Below are positions 1,055-12,122 of a stretch of DNA of 29,335 bases, in pieces. This DNA comes from a virus. A program made the translations under genes and the position numbers. The notes under the pieces were generated by a model that had not been told where the DNA came from, ran no database searches, and saw only the letters and a program-made list of their open reading frames with translations. How positions within the stretch are numbered: position 1 is the first letter of the stretch; every line of letters begins with the position of its first letter. The DNA is taken from IMG/VR virus record IMGVR_UViG_3300031787_000613, positions 1-29,335 of that record. The stretch is one strand, 5' to 3'.

Positions 1055-2575
1055 ATGCCTAGCCGCGCTTCTTTCGCTTACCGCCGCAGTGCTCAGCTAC
1101 AAGCTAAGAGAGCTTCAGACAGCACAGATAAGTCTATCGACACCATATATACTAGAGCTTCGAATGATTTTCACACCTTTTGTACTATTCTAGATAAGAC
1201 GCCAGCACGTCACATGCTGGAATGGCACAGACACTTGATTACAGGGGAATCTAATAAGTACTTATTAGATATCGCTGGACAAAATCTTGATATTTTGGCG
1301 CCGAGGGGATCCGCAAAGTCTACTGTGCTAAACCTTTTTACTGCATGGATTATAGGACGCCATACGACCGAAAAAAGACCTCTTCAAATTATCTACTGCT
1401 CCTACAACATTGCCACAGCTATCCCCAAGAGTCGCATTATCAAGCAAATTATCGACTCTCCTGATTACCGCAAGGTGTTCCCGCGCGTAAAACTGCGCTC
1501 GGGTATGCAGTCAGATATTGGCTGGTCGATTGATTTTGATTACGCGGGCATCCCCAGGCTTGGTGATGAGGAATTTACACTACGTGCGGCGGGGCTACGA
1601 GGCTCGATTACGTCGAAACGTGCTCATATTGTTATAGTAGATGACCCTATTAAGTCGAGCGCAGATATTAAAAACCCTGCAATCAGGGACGAAATGAATA
1701 ACAACTGGAGCTCCGTTATTGCTCCGATTATCTTTGAGGGCGGTCGCTCGATCTGCTTGGGGACTCGCTTCCACCCACTGGACATCCATAAAACGATGTT
1801 CATCCCGGATAAAGGTTGGAAGCAGGTGACACAGGAGGCGATTACTTATGACGACCGTGGCGAACCCGTCAGTTACTGGCCGGAACAGTGGAGTGCTGAT
1901 TACTTATTAGGTCAGAAGGAACTCGATCCTGTTGCGTTCGCGTATCAGTATCAGCAGCAGCCGGTGATGACATCGGATCTGGTCGTGTCGCCAGACCTTC
2001 TTGTTAAGGGTGAGGTTGTTACCGAATTTGACAGTCTGGCTGTCGGTATCGACCTTTCCGCAAGTAAAAATGAAACAAGTGATTACACAGCGTTTGTATT
2101 AGGAGGGAGACTTAAGGATAATTACTACATAATTGATGCACATCAGTGCCGATCCATCGGGAATCTTGAAAAAATCGATCTGCTGTGCGACATGTTGCTG
2201 GAATGGGGCATCCTGACGCAGCAAGACGGGCAGTTTTTCCCGACGTATTCCACAATTACCCTTGTGGTTGAGTCCGTGGCGTACCAAGCATCCCTCGCAG
2301 CTGACCTTAGGCGGGTACTTCTTAACGAAAGAGGCTTGAGCAACCTCCATATTCATGAAGTTAAGGGGTTCCGAGGAGACAAGATTGCTAGATTTAGAGG
2401 CACCCTTGGGCTGTTAGAGAACAAGAAGGTAACTTTTAACAAATACCGTAAGTTTGATGGTCTGTTTGACCAGTTGATCAACGTCGGTGCTACAGCTCAT
2501 GACGATTTGTTGGACGCATACACTTGGTTGATTACCTTTTTACAGCGTCGCGGGAACTTCTCGATCGAGTACTGA
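1055..2575 (+). CDS. terL: Terminase large subunit (packaging ATPase and nuclease)
   Basis: The 506-residue protein is the motor that pumps phage DNA into the prohead and cuts the concatemer. The ATPase domain has a Walker A-like PRGSAKST at residues 83-90, a Walker B IVIVDD at 192-197, and a GTRFHPLD segment near 236 where motif C is expected. The C-terminal RNase H-like nuclease domain shows the acidic triad pattern: D333 in VGIDLSA, E406 in LVVES, and D483/D484/D487 in AHDDLLDA. Length is normal for the family. No small terminase subunit is recognisable nearby; it may lie outside the window. The stop overlaps the next ATG (TGATG), implying translational coupling. Confidence 0.95.
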   Translation: MPSRASFAYRRSAQLQAKRASDSTDKSIDTIYTRASNDFHTFCTILDKTPARHMLEWHRHLITGESNKYLLDIAGQNLDILAPRGSAKSTVLNLFTAWIIGRHTTEKRPLQIIYCSYNIATAIPKSRIIKQIIDSPDYRKVFPRVKLRSGMQSDIGWSIDFDYAGIPRLGDEEFTLRAAGLRGSITSKRAHIVIVDDPIKSSADIKNPAIRDEMNNNWSSVIAPIIFEGGRSICLGTRFHPLDIHKTMFIPDKGWKQVTQEAITYDDRGEPVSYWPEQWSADYLLGQKELDPVAFAYQYQQQPVMTSDLVVSPDLLVKGEVVTEFDSLAVGIDLSASKNETSDYTAFVLGGRLKDNYYIIDAHQCRSIGNLEKIDLLCDMLLEWGILTQQDGQFFPTYSTITLVVESVAYQASLAADLRRVLLNERGLSNLHIHEVKGFRGDKIARFRGTLGLLENKKVTFNKYRKFDGLFDQLINVGATAHDDLLDAYTWLITFLQRRGNFSIEY

Positions 2576-5148: not shown

Positions 5149-5991
5149 GTGCTGTTCGACTGCTTTCTGTATTTCGACGAAAAAGAGCTCTTAGAGCTTC
5201 GTATTAATATTCTGAAAGATGTTGTAGATGGTTTTATTATCACTGACGCAGATCGTACGTTTAAGGGGGATAAAAAGGACTTTACGTGTGTCGACACGAT
5301 CCGTTCTTTAGGTCTTCCGGAGGAGAAGATTCAGGTTTTACACGTCGAACTACCTCCTCCGGATATTGCGCCGAATCCATGGGTTCGGGAGTACTCCCAG
5401 CGAGATGCTCTGGCCGTGGGTATGCGGATGACCCCTCCTGATTCTGTATTTTTCTTCAGTGACGTCGACGAGATCCCCAAACCTGAGGCTCTTCTAGCTG
5501 CGGTCGATTTGGCGAAACAAGACCCTGAGCGCTGCGTCCGTTTATCGATGCCTATGTTCTACGGACGGGCTGATCTCCGTGTTGTAGATCCAGAGCGCGA
5601 CACATCTAAACCCCCTACAAACTGGACTTGTGGAACAGTTGTTCTGCACGAGCACCTAGGTCAAACACTTTCAGAGATCCGTCAAAATCCAAACGATCTT
5701 GTTTACGGAGATTGTGATTCCGGCTGGCATTTCTCTTGGATGGGAGATCCCGCCCGCATGAAGCGTAAGCTTACGTCGTTTTCTCACTGCTACGACGATA
5801 TTCCGTACGCTCACGCTCCTGCGTATAGTCAGGAGATGCTGGATTATCTTGACGCTTACAAAGCTGAAGCCGGTGGTAACGATCCCTTAGGACGAAAAGA
5901 TCATGTTCTGGAGCCCTATCCGCATGAGCTTTTGCCGCCTGAGCTGTTTAAAATAGAGAGAGTACGCGAGTATCTACTTCCCAATGGCTGA
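5149..5991 (+). CDS. GT17-like glycosyltransferase
   Basis: This 280-residue protein matches the GT17 pattern (the family of beta-1,4-mannosyl-glycoprotein N-acetylglucosaminyltransferases, with many bacterial and phage members). It opens with LFDCFLYFDEKELLELRINIL, then VDGFIITDADRTFKGDKK (residues 26-43), WVREYSQRD (78-86), the metal-binding DVDEIP (105-110) and GWHFSWMG (192-199). It should transfer a sugar, often GlcNAc, from a nucleotide donor; the acceptor is unknown. The start is GTG; an ATG five bases earlier is out of frame. The end overlaps the next small gene by 8 bases. It is the third glycosyltransferase in the window and of a different family from the other two. Confidence 0.88.
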   Translation: MLFDCFLYFDEKELLELRINILKDVVDGFIITDADRTFKGDKKDFTCVDTIRSLGLPEEKIQVLHVELPPPDIAPNPWVREYSQRDALAVGMRMTPPDSVFFFSDVDEIPKPEALLAAVDLAKQDPERCVRLSMPMFYGRADLRVVDPERDTSKPPTNWTCGTVVLHEHLGQTLSEIRQNPNDLVYGDCDSGWHFSWMGDPARMKRKLTSFSHCYDDIPYAHAPAYSQEMLDYLDAYKAEAGGNDPLGRKDHVLEPYPHELLPPELFKIERVREYLLPNG

Positions 5992-6167: not shown

Positions 6168-8405
6168 ATGCCTGCGGACAACCTAAGCGTACGGCAGCGG
6201 TTTAATGAGATTCTAGAAGCTTCTAGAACTCAAGATCGCAGCAAACAATCTGCGACTATGGTTGTCCTTAGTCATCTGCAGCAAATGACGCTGCTGATGA
6301 TGAAAAAAGGGCTGTTTTTTTACTGCGAGCAAGATACCTATAAGGCTCGGACAAAGTTTGTCGAGGATCTTATCCAGCTAAACCGTCTGGATATTCGGTT
6401 TCCTTCGATTATTCGTAACTTTCTTATCGACGGCTGTGGGCTTTTTTACTTTCGACCGGATCCAAAATTAAAGTATCAAATTTACTTCTTCAACAAAACT
6501 CAGTACAGGGTTTATCACGACATCAACGGTGAGATCGAAGAAGTCGTAATCATTTATAGTTATAAGATTCGCAACAGCGCTATCGGTCTGCCTGCAGATA
6601 CGCAAGGACAGAATAAACGGTATGTTCGAATATCTATAACTAACGACAAGATTACAGAATATGAAGCTAATAGTGAGCTCAGTTTTGAACTTGAGCCCGG
6701 ATCTTTAATTACACCTAAAAACAGTCGTCCGAATACACTCGGATTTATTCCGGCTGTTGAGGTTCTAAACAAGCCGAACGCCAGCGGTACAGAGGGCGAG
6801 GGCGAATTCGAGCCCTTCATGCAGCAAATTGTTCTGCATGATCAGATGATGCAGAATATTGCTAAGAACATTGAGTTCTTTGGCAACCCCACACTGATCA
6901 GTTCGCGTCCTCGCAGTGATCTGGTCGAAGCTTCGGATGCGGATCGGACATTCCGTCCCACGATCAGCAGTCAAAGTGGTTTCGCTGGTATCGATTCGCC
7001 GTCGACACGTGTTTCAGAACCTTTTGGTTCTCAGTCTGGTCTCGGCGGACTTCGTGTCCCTCGGATTATCGCGAACGTAGAGCCCTCCGACCGCGTGGGC
7101 TACATGACACCAGACCCCGTTAACGGGGATATGAACCGGTATGCGCTTTTATTACGAGAAGAGATTCGAACAGCCCTGGGTGGGGTTGATGAAATATCAA
7201 TCAGCGCCGGAGCCACTGCGACGGAAATTAAAGGGCTTATGGGTCGCGCTCAAGCGACTGCTCTTCGTAAAAATAAGAGTTTTCTGACCTACGGTTTTTG
7301 TCGTTTGCTGGAAATGATCCTGTACCATCAGGAGCAAATTTTCCGCGAAAGTTTTATTTCGGTTATGGGTTTAGCCCCGCCGAAAGAACCTAAAGAACAA
7401 ACTGAAGAGACACTGCTTAAGTACCAATCGAAGCTAACAAAATACGAAGAAAATGTCGATCTAGCGATCCAAGCTGCACTTGCCGATAACAAAGTCCCAC
7501 GTGGTGTTTTTGGACTTCCCCCTGATGGGGATCGTGCGGTAACGTATCGATTCCAGGGTGATGTGTACGAAGACACTGCGTACGATATCAACCAAAAGTC
7601 AATCGTAGTCCGGAACTTGCAAGAGCTTGGCGTAGATAGTGTCGAAGCTCTGAAGTATTTGTTCCCGGATAAAACTGATCTGGAACGTTCGGAAATGTTG
7701 AAGGGCTTTCCTTTCCGAATGATTCAACAAACGCAGGGCGCAATGTCGCAATTCTTGCTACTATTGAACCAGATGCTACAAGCCCCGCATCCGTTAGCCC
7801 CTAATCAGCCTTTAGCGGCTGATCCTCGGCTAAACCTAACGCCCTTACTTTATAGGACGTTTGACCACCTCGCGCAAGAACTGACTTACTCGGGCAGCTA
7901 TGAGCCAGCAGATCCCAGCTTCGATCCCGAGCCCGGTCTCCCCGGCGGTAGCAGCCCCTCAGGCGGCGGCCCCGGCGGCGGACCAGGGTTCAACCGCTTA
8001 CCCGCAATGGGTAGCCAGTACCCAGGCGGTGCCTTCGGCAGTTATGCCCCAAGCGCCATCGCCGGCACAACAGGCTACGGTCCCTTCTACCAACAGCCAG
8101 TACAACCAGTCTCTGTCCGTATCCTCCCCGAGCAACCCTTGGGAAGCAGCGCTGGGCAGCTTGGACCGGATAGTGTCCCGGCTCTCCCCGTCGCCCAGCC
8201 AGACAGCACCGTCAGCGCAACCCCAACTGACGGCGGCGGATATTCAACAACTCAGTCAGCTTTCACAGGCCCAACCGTGGGCTTACCAAGCCCCTACGGC
8301 TCAGCCGACCTACTACAACAACGGGTCTACGACCCAAACTTCCTATCCGACTTCTACGGAACAACAGGCTCCAAGCCTAAGTCCCGAAACATCCGCCGTC
8401 GTTAA
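6168..8405 (+). CDS. Portal protein with overprinted C-terminal tail
   Basis: This protein of 745 residues should form the dodecameric ring through which DNA enters and leaves the capsid. Residues 1-575 have the look of a portal: an alpha/beta wing (residues 85-200), a Gln/Met-rich helical stem-like part (FMQQIVLHDQMMQNIAKNIEFF near 220) and a long helical region with AGATATEIKG (about 345). Position between small genes and the scaffold-like gene supports this. An AAGGA ribosome site precedes the ATG. From residue about 578 to the end the tail is Gly/Pro/Ser/Gln-rich and is encoded by the same DNA as the first 169 codons of the next gene in the +1 frame. It ends KPKSRNIRRR. The portal call is based on length, order and pattern rather than one decisive motif. 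Confidence 0.8.
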   Translation: MPADNLSVRQRFNEILEASRTQDRSKQSATMVVLSHLQQMTLLMMKKGLFFYCEQDTYKARTKFVEDLIQLNRLDIRFPSIIRNFLIDGCGLFYFRPDPKLKYQIYFFNKTQYRVYHDINGEIEEVVIIYSYKIRNSAIGLPADTQGQNKRYVRISITNDKITEYEANSELSFELEPGSLITPKNSRPNTLGFIPAVEVLNKPNASGTEGEGEFEPFMQQIVLHDQMMQNIAKNIEFFGNPTLISSRPRSDLVEASDADRTFRPTISSQSGFAGIDSPSTRVSEPFGSQSGLGGLRVPRIIANVEPSDRVGYMTPDPVNGDMNRYALLLREEIRTALGGVDEISISAGATATEIKGLMGRAQATALRKNKSFLTYGFCRLLEMILYHQEQIFRESFISVMGLAPPKEPKEQTEETLLKYQSKLTKYEENVDLAIQAALADNKVPRGVFGLPPDGDRAVTYRFQGDVYEDTAYDINQKSIVVRNLQELGVDSVEALKYLFPDKTDLERSEMLKGFPFRMIQQTQGAMSQFLLLLNQMLQAPHPLAPNQPLAADPRLNLTPLLYRTFDHLAQELTYSGSYEPADPSFDPEPGLPGGSSPSGGGPGGGPGFNRLPAMGSQYPGGAFGSYAPSAIAGTTGYGPFYQQPVQPVSVRILPEQPLGSSAGQLGPDSVPALPVAQPDSTVSATPTDGGGYSTTQSAFTGPTVGLPSPYGSADLLQQRVYDPNFLSDFYGTTGSKPKSRNIRRR

Positions 8406-8811
8406 TCACTTCGGTATCGAGGCTCCGGGTATCCTCAATCAGTACGCCACCACGCTCGAAGATGCGCTGATTCAGCAGCATCAAGTGCTGGAGGAAGTTT
8501 CCAATCGCGGGGCTGCTATGGAAGCTATCCTGACGGATCCTGATCACTTAGCTGATTACACCAACCGTTTCTTTACTGAAGTGTATCCTGTAGACGAACA
8601 GCAACCTGCTCAACAGTACAACCCTCAGTACGATCAGGTTCCCGCCGTGCCCGCTTCCGCCGTGGCCGGTGCTCCCTCCCCCGACGCTGATGCTCAGTGG
8701 CAGAACTTCAGCCAAGTCATGAACCAGAGCCCTGAAAACGCTTGGCGTTACCTGTCCAACATGGGTCCCGAAGCGTTCCGCTCAAAACTCTTGTTCTTGG
8801 ACAACGCCTGA
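7900..8811 (+). CDS. Probable capsid scaffolding protein, overlapping the portal gene
   Basis: This 303-residue protein begins inside the portal gene in another frame; 7900-8405 codes for both. The N-terminal half is Ala/Pro/Gln/Ser-rich and probably disordered, with islands that look structured (NPWEAALGSLDRIVSRL at about 81-97, AADIQQLSQLSQAQPWAY). The second half is helical and acidic (GILNQYATTLEDALIQQHQVLEEV, then QNFSQVMNQSPENAWRYLSNMGPEAFRSKLLFLDNA). Low-complexity start plus helical end, placed between portal and capsid genes, fits a scaffolding protein. The start has no obvious Shine-Dalgarno; the only other upstream-half Met (8044) would still leave a large overlap. It is followed directly by a terminator. 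Confidence 0.72.
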   Translation: MSQQIPASIPSPVSPAVAAPQAAAPAADQGSTAYPQWVASTQAVPSAVMPQAPSPAQQATVPSTNSQYNQSLSVSSPSNPWEAALGSLDRIVSRLSPSPSQTAPSAQPQLTAADIQQLSQLSQAQPWAYQAPTAQPTYYNNGSTTQTSYPTSTEQQAPSLSPETSAVVNHFGIEAPGILNQYATTLEDALIQQHQVLEEVSNRGAAMEAILTDPDHLADYTNRFFTEVYPVDEQQPAQQYNPQYDQVPAVPASAVAGAPSPDADAQWQNFSQVMNQSPENAWRYLSNMGPEAFRSKLLFLDNA

Positions 8812-8836
8812 CCTAAACTCAGGGGTGATGGGGACA

Positions 8837-8865
8837 AACCCCGCTTTGAGCGAGCGGGGTTTTTT
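8837..8865 (+). terminator. Rho-independent terminator after the scaffold-like gene
   Basis: CCCCGCT (8839-8845) pairs with AGCGGGG (8853-8859) around a 7-base loop, followed by six T. It ends transcription of the portal/scaffold unit. The T-tail plus following bases (GGGGTTTTTTATTGTC, 8856-8871) recur at the second terminator near 12160. Confidence 0.9.
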
Positions 8866-10113: not shown

Positions 10114-11229
10114 GTGTTTGTCGATAATGATTTCCCGAAGCTTCTCGGCGCCGAGCTCTATCGTCCGCACCCCGCGTACGTTGTAGAGATGGCAGCAGAG
10201 CCTGTGGTCGTTCACGACTTCAGCAAGCAGCCAGGCCAGACTGTGCAGTTAGACCGCTACAGGTTCTGGGGCAATCCGGGAAGCAAAGAGTCACGTGAGC
10301 GTACTGCAGAGCAGACCATCGGTACTGCTAACAGCCGCAACATCGTGAAGGACAAAGTGCTCGTGACTCTTCGCGAGTACACCGGTCCTGCTGACCCGAG
10401 TGATCCCACTCAACCGAGCACCTTCAAGATTGCTCGTGAGACCCTGATCACCGCTCAGCGTCTGCTGCTGGATACCGGCAACCTGACCGCTTTCCACCAG
10501 TCGATTGGTTCGCTGACTCTGCTCGACGACTATCGTCGTTGGCGCGACCGGGTGTTCATCAACGAACTCCTGAAAGCTGTTTCTAAGGGTCAGGCTTCTG
10601 ACACCCAAGGTGGTTACTACTACCCTGGTGATCTCGCTGTTGGTTCTCTGACCTACAGCAACGCCGAACAAGCTAAGTTCGACGTCAAGGACGACCTGCT
10701 GCGCGTGGTGAAGAGCCTGCGTAAGCGTAACGTTCCTACCTATCAGGACGGTTTCTATCGCTGCGTTTGCGATCCTACCTTCCTGATGCACCTGCGTCAG
10801 AACAGCGATTTCCGCGAGGTCGCTCGTTATCCTGGCAACGGTCAGATCAACCCCCTCATGTCCGCAATGCAGCCCAACGCTGCGCTGTACATGGGTCAGG
10901 GCTTCGGTCAGGCCACCTTCGTGGCTGGTGAGCCCATCATGCCCACCGGCTTCGTGTTCGAAGGAGTGCGCTTCTTCGAATCCACCAACATGCCTTCTCA
11001 GAACCAGAGTGCCACCATCGGCGGTACCGCTGCTTCTTACGAGAGCGCTATTGGTATGTTCTTCGGTCCTCAGAGCGTGGGCGTCGGTATCGGCGGCAAC
11101 AACGCTCAGGTGCTGCTGAACAACAATGACGACTTCAGCCGTTTCATCATGATGATTTGGAGCCTGTACGCAGGTTTCGAACTCCTGAACGCTGACTTCG
11201 CCACCATCGCGTACTCCTTTAACGCTTGA
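10114..11229 (+). CDS. Major capsid protein
   Basis: The 371-residue product should be the main shell protein (HK97 fold expected). Support is its position after portal and scaffold genes, length, flanking hairpin and terminator, and a shift to optimal-looking codons (CGT/CGC, AAC, GGT/GGC, CTG), as expected for the most abundant phage protein. Residues 20-60 (HPAYVVEMAAEPVVVHDF, then QTVQLDRYRFWG) and the long helix region near 120-165 (ALLxAQRLLLDTGNLT-like, WRDRVFINELLKAV) recall the N4-gp56 type of capsid proteins, though I cannot confirm family membership. It starts with GTG, with GGAG at 10101-10104. Fifteen bases and a very strong ribosome site separate it from the next gene. Confidence 0.8.
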   Translation: MFVDNDFPKLLGAELYRPHPAYVVEMAAEPVVVHDFSKQPGQTVQLDRYRFWGNPGSKESRERTAEQTIGTANSRNIVKDKVLVTLREYTGPADPSDPTQPSTFKIARETLITAQRLLLDTGNLTAFHQSIGSLTLLDDYRRWRDRVFINELLKAVSKGQASDTQGGYYYPGDLAVGSLTYSNAEQAKFDVKDDLLRVVKSLRKRNVPTYQDGFYRCVCDPTFLMHLRQNSDFREVARYPGNGQINPLMSAMQPNAALYMGQGFGQATFVAGEPIMPTGFVFEGVRFFESTNMPSQNQSATIGGTAASYESAIGMFFGPQSVGVGIGGNNAQVLLNNNDDFSRFIMMIWSLYAGFELLNADFATIAYSFNA

Positions 11230-11235
11230 GGAGGT
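11230..11235 (+). promoter_or_regulatory. Strong ribosome binding site GGAGGT
   Basis: GGAGGT lies 8 bases before the ATG at 11244. It is one of the best Shine-Dalgarno matches in the window (most genes here have weak or no such site) and points to high-level translation of the capsid partner protein. Confidence 0.85.
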
Positions 11236-11243
11236 AACTAACG

Positions 11244-12122
11244 ATGGCAATCAACTCTAACCAGCTCCAAGTTGCCAAGATTTATCCTGGTAACTACACC
11301 AATGTTCTTCGTTACTGGCACGAAGAAAAGTCCGTTGTTTTTAACAACGAAAACGGCACTTCCGAAACCCTGACTGGTCAGCCTATTGGCGGTCCTGTCG
11401 GCGTGGTGTTCCGTCCCGGTTGGATTGCCCAACAGGCAATCGGTTATGTCGACCTGTCTTACCAGGCCCTCGGCACCAACAACCAGCTGGACTACTACAC
11501 CCAGCCTTATGGTTCCGGTTTGAACGGCTCTAATCAAGCCTTCAGCAGCGCCAATGTGATCATCCCCTCTCCGGATTTCCACAAGGACATCCGTTCGGAT
11601 ATCACCGACGGTATCAAAGTGCCTGCTGGCGCTTATGTGTATCGTGCCTCTCTCCGTGTGGACGGCGGCGATGTGATCAGCAGCGGTGTGGGTGGCGGTT
11701 CCGCTACTCCTCAGCTGACCCTGGTTCCCGCAATGAACCAAGGTCTCCGCAGCGATGGCACCGTTGTGTCGGGTCAGTTCGGTGTGTCCGTAACCGGTTC
11801 CAGCAGCCGCATCGAGAACGGCAGCAATGCCTCGGTGAACATCATCAACTCCAACAACCTCTCCGCTCTGGCGGCTGAGACCACTTGGAGGCTGTTCGCC
11901 ACCCGCAACCTCGGCGGTGTTGTTGCTTCTGGTCTGACTCTGGCTTCGGGTACTTTCGACCCCCGTGCCGGTGTGGGCAGCCTGAAAGGCAAGGACAAAG
12001 CACTCGCTGTGTGCGAAGTGTGCTGGATCGTGCCTGACTCTGCTCCCAAGCGCGACGACTTGGCTCTTCAGCCTGGCGGCGTGGTGGAGTCCAGTGTTTT
12101 CACTTCGACTGTGCCCTCCTGA
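11244..12122 (+). CDS. Abundant virion protein co-expressed with the capsid protein
   Basis: This 292-residue protein is not assigned to a family. It shares the capsid gene's codon style and unit, has a strong GGAGGT ribosome site, and is closed by a terminator. It should therefore be abundant: a capsid decoration protein, a head-tail structural protein or a second shell protein. The sequence is beta-rich with Gly/Ser/Asn turns (SSGVGGGSATPQLTLVPAM, TGSSSRIENGSNASVNI) and a C-terminal segment with two Cys (AVCEVCWIVPDSAPK). No enzymatic motif is seen. Confidence 0.8.
   Translation: MAINSNQLQVAKIYPGNYTNVLRYWHEEKSVVFNNENGTSETLTGQPIGGPVGVVFRPGWIAQQAIGYVDLSYQALGTNNQLDYYTQPYGSGLNGSNQAFSSANVIIPSPDFHKDIRSDITDGIKVPAGAYVYRASLRVDGGDVISSGVGGGSATPQLTLVPAMNQGLRSDGTVVSGQFGVSVTGSSSRIENGSNASVNIINSNNLSALAAETTWRLFATRNLGGVVASGLTLASGTFDPRAGVGSLKGKDKALAVCEVCWIVPDSAPKRDDLALQPGGVVESSVFTSTVPS

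Follow-up and report, generated by a model that had tools for sequence, protein, structure and literature searches.

In phages T7 and P-SSP7 the portal gene is followed by the scaffold gene (gene 8 then gene 9 in T7; gp8 then gp9 in P-SSP7): a 99-nt gap lies between the two in T7 and a 1-nt overlap joins them in P-SSP7. In phage lambda the scaffold start lies within another head gene: Nu3 begins inside C and is read in frame with it. Among virus reference genomes, +1 overlaps have a median length of 14 nt (IQR 8–26; PMC8903798). Here we analyze a 29,335-nt stretch of viral DNA (IMG/VR record IMGVR_UViG_3300031787_000613; hereafter the window) in which portal and downstream gene stand in the T7 and P-SSP7 order but, unlike lambda C and Nu3, occupy different frames of 506 nt of shared DNA. 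Tailed phages rarely have out-of-frame overlaps of this length between two structural genes, and the literature searched yielded no account of one between portal and scaffold.

The window derives from an S-EIV1-like cyanophage: terminase, portal and capsid protein are homologous to those of Synechococcus phage S-EIV1 and lie in the same order (53%, about 42–44% and 69% identity, respectively). S-EIV1 (KJ410740.1) is the only isolate found in the lineage, is the best match for both major capsid protein and terminase, and belongs to a group that accounted for 3.3% of the cyanophage content of one marine survey (PMC5332604). It carries the same portal and the same downstream gene, with an overlap of 554 nt and the frame relation seen in the window. 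However, of the 325 codons of the downstream gene the record includes just the last 133 (AHV82225, L142 8321–8722), whereas the gene's conserved start is at L142 7745; the overlap is therefore missing from the annotation. Standard gene calling thus shortened the second gene in the lineage's only isolate.

The portal ORF of the window (6168–8405, plus strand, as are all features below unless stated) encodes 745 aa from an ATG. Its product is a Caudoviricetes portal by profile (PHROG 20475, virion structural protein, E = 2.1e-162; also the portal families phrog_64 and phrog_104) and by fold, the AlphaFold2 (AF2) model matching the solved portals of 80alpha, T7, SPP1 and P-SCSP1u in Foldseek with E down to 2.9e-11. 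The portal core, residues 1–577 (6168–7899), is single-coding and shows the codon-position pattern of one gene. The remaining 506 nt (7900–8405) encode portal residues 578–745 plus the stop and, at the same time, residues 1–169 of a scaffold-like protein: its ORF (7900–8811, 303 aa, ATG) is in the +1 frame relative to portal and lies between portal and the major capsid gene (10114–11229; phrog_1357, major head protein, E = 2e-22). Neither frame is interrupted over the 506 nt. The coordinates, residue ranges and KPKSRNIRRR tail given in the initial annotation match the ORFs derived again here. We consider it highly probable that 7900–8405 is a genuine and old case of dual coding by two head-assembly genes, the second started internally and both contributing flexible arms.

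Conservation of the overlap and selection on both frames

Relatives were collected by querying viral contigs with portal and scaffold and by one scan of genome contigs. After duplicates and truncated portals were dropped, 215 distinct sequences were assigned to clades by best reference: A (that of the window, n = 71), B (S-EIV1, n = 76), C (L229, n = 40) and D (L276, n = 28). The +1 overlap is kept in all 215, each with a complete portal, at lengths of 443–641 nt (A, 497–509; B, 524–641; C, 446–566; D, 443–524). The first searches favor close relatives in their ranking; in an additional motif scan, which was unranked, overlaps above 400 nt were present in 90 of 92 complete portals, on contigs partly shared with the set of 215. 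Two single contigs carry frame-breaking indels – one within the overlap, exchanging the portal and scaffold frames (L373), and one in the portal core, which is split between frames (L332) – that could be sequencing errors or real mutations. An outgroup without the overlap was not found in these scans, most of which favor close relatives, and distant ones may exist unseen. Portal stops soon after residue ~577, which the initial annotation had named as refuting evidence, are absent in every lineage of relatives. Assembly error as the source of the overlap is rejected by the same arrangement in 215 distinct sequences and an isolate.

Both frames are thus open and conserved in relatives, as befits a dual-coding pair. 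Between the four clades, portal cores are only about 41–55% identical; judged from its presence in all four, the overlap is older than their split and hence not recent. The suggestion of a recent overprint made from the window alone must accordingly be given up: the overlap is not limited to close relatives but fixed throughout a cyanophage lineage that is widespread. It constitutes a natural, deeply sampled dual-coding system, with hundreds of genomes, two frames and an embedded start.

Variation by codon position differs between single-coding and shared DNA. Pairwise differences at portal codon positions 1, 2 and 3 in clade A are 0.155, 0.075 and 0.511 in portal-only DNA vs. 0.213, 0.119 and 0.226 in the overlap; in the S-EIV1 clade the third-position difference drops from 0.48 outside the overlap to 0.19 inside, and the pattern in clades B–D is like that of clade A. 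Third positions of the scaffold frame also differ less within the overlap than at the single-coding level. A gene in the portal frame alone would not give this pattern, nor would one in the scaffold frame alone: both frames are constrained.

Ratios were obtained from OLGenie-style counts written for the present analysis, with bootstrap intervals. For clades A–D the portal ratio in the overlap is 0.37, 0.60, 0.57 and 0.62, and the scaffold ratio 0.38, 0.28, 0.45 and 0.54, with all intervals below 1; as controls, the portal frame imposed on scaffold-only DNA gives 1.19–1.72 and the scaffold frame imposed on portal-only DNA 0.78–0.86. Purifying selection acts on both frames within the overlap, which is what the initial annotation had proposed to look for among relatives; its claim that both frames code is borne out by frames that are open, conserved in 215 of 215 sequences and selected. 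Mean column conservation is alike in the two (0.45 and 0.47), and conserved segments show no significant correlation between frames in either direction (rho 0.06–0.14), as partitioning might have given.

The openness of the portal frame was assessed in two ways. Just beyond its own stop the frame has a stop density of about 6% per codon (in the window's clade), so that 165 open codons would arise by chance with a probability of about 4e-5. When the scaffold protein is held fixed and its codons are redrawn synonymously, the portal frame remains open in 0 of 2,000 redraws for the window, 0.15% for S-EIV1, none for L229 and 2.25% for L276. Since it is almost never open in these redraws, a portal frame open by chance is rejected. 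The converse redraw (portal protein fixed) is a weak test, leaving the scaffold frame open in 0.6–46% of cases; the case for the scaffold frame is therefore carried by the comparative evidence.

Initiation of the downstream gene

In two clades the start of the scaffold-like gene is preceded by a Shine-Dalgarno sequence embedded in portal codons: AAAGGAG followed by ATG in clade B (AAAAGGAGATGAGTTATG) and AAGGAG followed by GTG in clade C (AAGGAGTTAAGTTACAGTG). Synonymous variation of the portal frame at this site is matched or undercut in only 3 of 476 windows of clade B and in none of 414 of clade C. Clade A has, in the seven codons that end at the start, less synonymous variation than in any of the 496 seven-codon windows of portal-only DNA – in the window the strongly suppressed region is 7875–7902 – and TAC TCG GGC AGC in this region is invariant in all 71 sequences. 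Synonymous suppression at the start is absent from clade D. The start codon itself, ATG or GTG, is kept in all relatives. Together these data show that most clades conserve an initiation site within the portal codons.

The clear Shine-Dalgarno of S-EIV1 has no counterpart in the window: no such sequence precedes the clade A start, where the site corresponds to the AAAGGAG / AAGGAG found in S-EIV1-like and L229-like phages. Nor is a Shine-Dalgarno present at several other genes of the window. An RNA hairpin around the clade A start was considered and rejected, folding being no better than that of shuffled sequences (z between −0.24 and 0.27). Positions 7875–7899 of the window are thus codons nearly frozen synonymously, with neither a Shine-Dalgarno nor a significant RNA fold.

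Could the downstream frame be non-coding until after the portal stop? The second gene would then begin where GenBank places it in KJ410740.1, as a protein like the 133-codon AHV82225, and the portal frame alone would code in the overlap; a scaffold frame that stays open in 0.6–46% of redraws with the portal protein fixed agrees with this. Yet the reading is extremely improbable, given that clades B and C carry an embedded Shine-Dalgarno and start codon, that the scaffold-frame ratio is 0.28–0.54 against the higher values in control DNA, and that an NPW-type motif of the scaffold frame (described below) is conserved across clades.

Programmed frameshifting that yields the scaffold chiefly as a fusion to portal is likewise most unlikely. 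It would give a role to the invariant block just before the clade A start, where no Shine-Dalgarno is present, but a scaffold-frame stop stands no more than 15 nt before the start codon in 213 of the 215 sequences (7882–7884 in the window): this leaves almost no room to shift and speaks against a fusion, as do the universal ATG or GTG and the good Shine-Dalgarno of two clades. Internal initiation appears the best reading of the route to the scaffold-like protein, favored by the embedded Shine-Dalgarno and start with suppressed synonymous change in two clades. Portal and scaffold-like gene probably share one transcript, since an intrinsic-terminator-like hairpin with a T run (8836–8862) lies directly 3′ of the latter.

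Two predicted flexible arms and the probable identity of the downstream protein

The folded part of the portal model stops at about residue 570 (AF2), and residues 571–745, with block pLDDT of about 25–46, are predicted to be a largely disordered, low-complexity tail rich in Gly, Pro and Ser. Tail sequences diverge strongly from clade to clade; nonetheless, short motifs stand out in the window: GSADL (residues 711–715, 8298–8312), identified by alignment of portals; PNFLSDF (residues 723–729, 8334–8354), with a short predicted helix at 725–729; and the basic tip KPKSRNIRRR (residues 736–745, 8373–8402). G711 and D714 do not vary in 62 aligned portals, and GSAD is found in 71 of 71 sequences of clade A and 62 of 76 of clade B, with none in C or D. 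The basic tip noticed in the window alone proved to be a feature of nearly all relatives and, on average, of all four clades: mean net charge over the last 20 residues is +4.9 to +8.1.

Disorder, low complexity and strong divergence between clades are also what one might expect if only the scaffold-like frame coded, the portal tail being processed off or passively read through and kept open by base composition; related portal folds in PDB and BFVD, moreover, are often just 440–560 residues long. Set against this are the portal-frame ratio (0.37–0.62 in the overlap vs. 1.2–1.7 on scaffold-only DNA), the portal frame's near-constant closure in synonymous redraws, and the conservation of GSADL and the basic tip, which make scaffold-only coding very unlikely. 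Processing of the tail after translation is possible.

The scaffold-like protein is predicted to begin with an arm of similar character. Block pLDDT over residues 1–160 is about 30–53, suggesting a largely disordered stretch of Pro, Gln, Ala and Ser; the C-terminal half is helical (helices 162–226 and 263–302, 8383–8805; block pLDDT up to 84) and lies almost wholly 3′ of the portal stop. The low-complexity character that the initial annotation ascribed to both products is thus in line with the AF2 models. Within the arm, residues 79–95 (NPWEAALGSLDRIVSRL, 8134–8184) form a conserved motif, with a low-confidence AF2 helix at 80–95. This island had been singled out from the window as a sign of coding, and it is indeed conserved across clades: an NPW-type motif is present in 210 of 215 sequences, from all four.

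No trustworthy match to the scaffold-like protein was obtained in PHROG, Pfam or PDB – it has no family in the protein libraries searched – and hhalign against the gp9 scaffolds of T7 and P-SSP7 gives probabilities under 1%, with no sequence similarity detected. By profile it does not class as a phage scaffold. These negative results are what one would expect of some other head or neck protein, dual coding being real all the same; we regard this alternative as unlikely, though deserving of weight. The gene's location, between those for portal and major capsid protein, together with a predicted helical fold with a disordered N-terminal part, is that of a phage scaffold; its 303 aa are close to the 307 of T7 and 265 of P-SSP7; and from 8811 to the capsid gene at 10114 there is no other evident scaffold candidate. 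From gene order, size and predicted fold we infer a scaffold role.

If portal and scaffold-like genes are dual-coded as proposed, one mRNA would carry both. Ribosomes starting at 6168 would make the 745-residue portal, whose last approximately 170 residues would be a flexible arm rich in Gly, Pro and Ser that carries the conserved short motifs and, at its end, the basic tip; others, starting at 7900 inside the portal gene in the +1 frame, would make a separate scaffold-like protein with a flexible Pro/Gln/Ala/Ser arm of about 160 residues bearing one amphipathic helix, and a helical C-terminal half. Both arms may act inside the procapsid, the portal arm touching scaffold or DNA. A more specific proposal, which we offer as doubtful speculation, is that the overlap is kept because the two proteins work as a pair: the portal arm, with its basic tip, would bring in scaffold or DNA as the procapsid nucleates; the arm would have been born when portal was read into the scaffold gene, and the shared DNA would tie together the evolution and relative translation of the two.

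As to direction, three observations suggest that the portal tail, rather than the scaffold arm, is the newcomer: many related portal folds have only the shorter length given above; in T7 and P-SSP7 the two genes are adjacent and the scaffolds of similar length; and the scaffold ratio is below the portal ratio in three of four clades.

Neighboring genes

The S-EIV1 terminase (AHV82220, L142 2538–5078) contains an intein domain (Pfam Intein_splicing, residues 202–526, E = 1.4e-11); the terminase of the window (1055–2575, 506 aa) aligns to it in two separate segments and seems to lack the intein. Between terminase and portal the window carries a glycosyltransferase family 17 gene (5149–5991; Pfam, E = 3.9e-15).

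At 60784–62010 of KJ410740.1 (L142 9242–10468) the S-EIV1 record has no full major capsid gene: the CDSs placed over the capsid protein match (60859–61986) are an antisense one and a shortened sense one. The window has a 319-aa ORF on the minus strand opposite its major capsid gene (10291–11250). In relatives this antisense frame contains 2–4 stops on average; the ORF thus looks like a side effect of codon bias.
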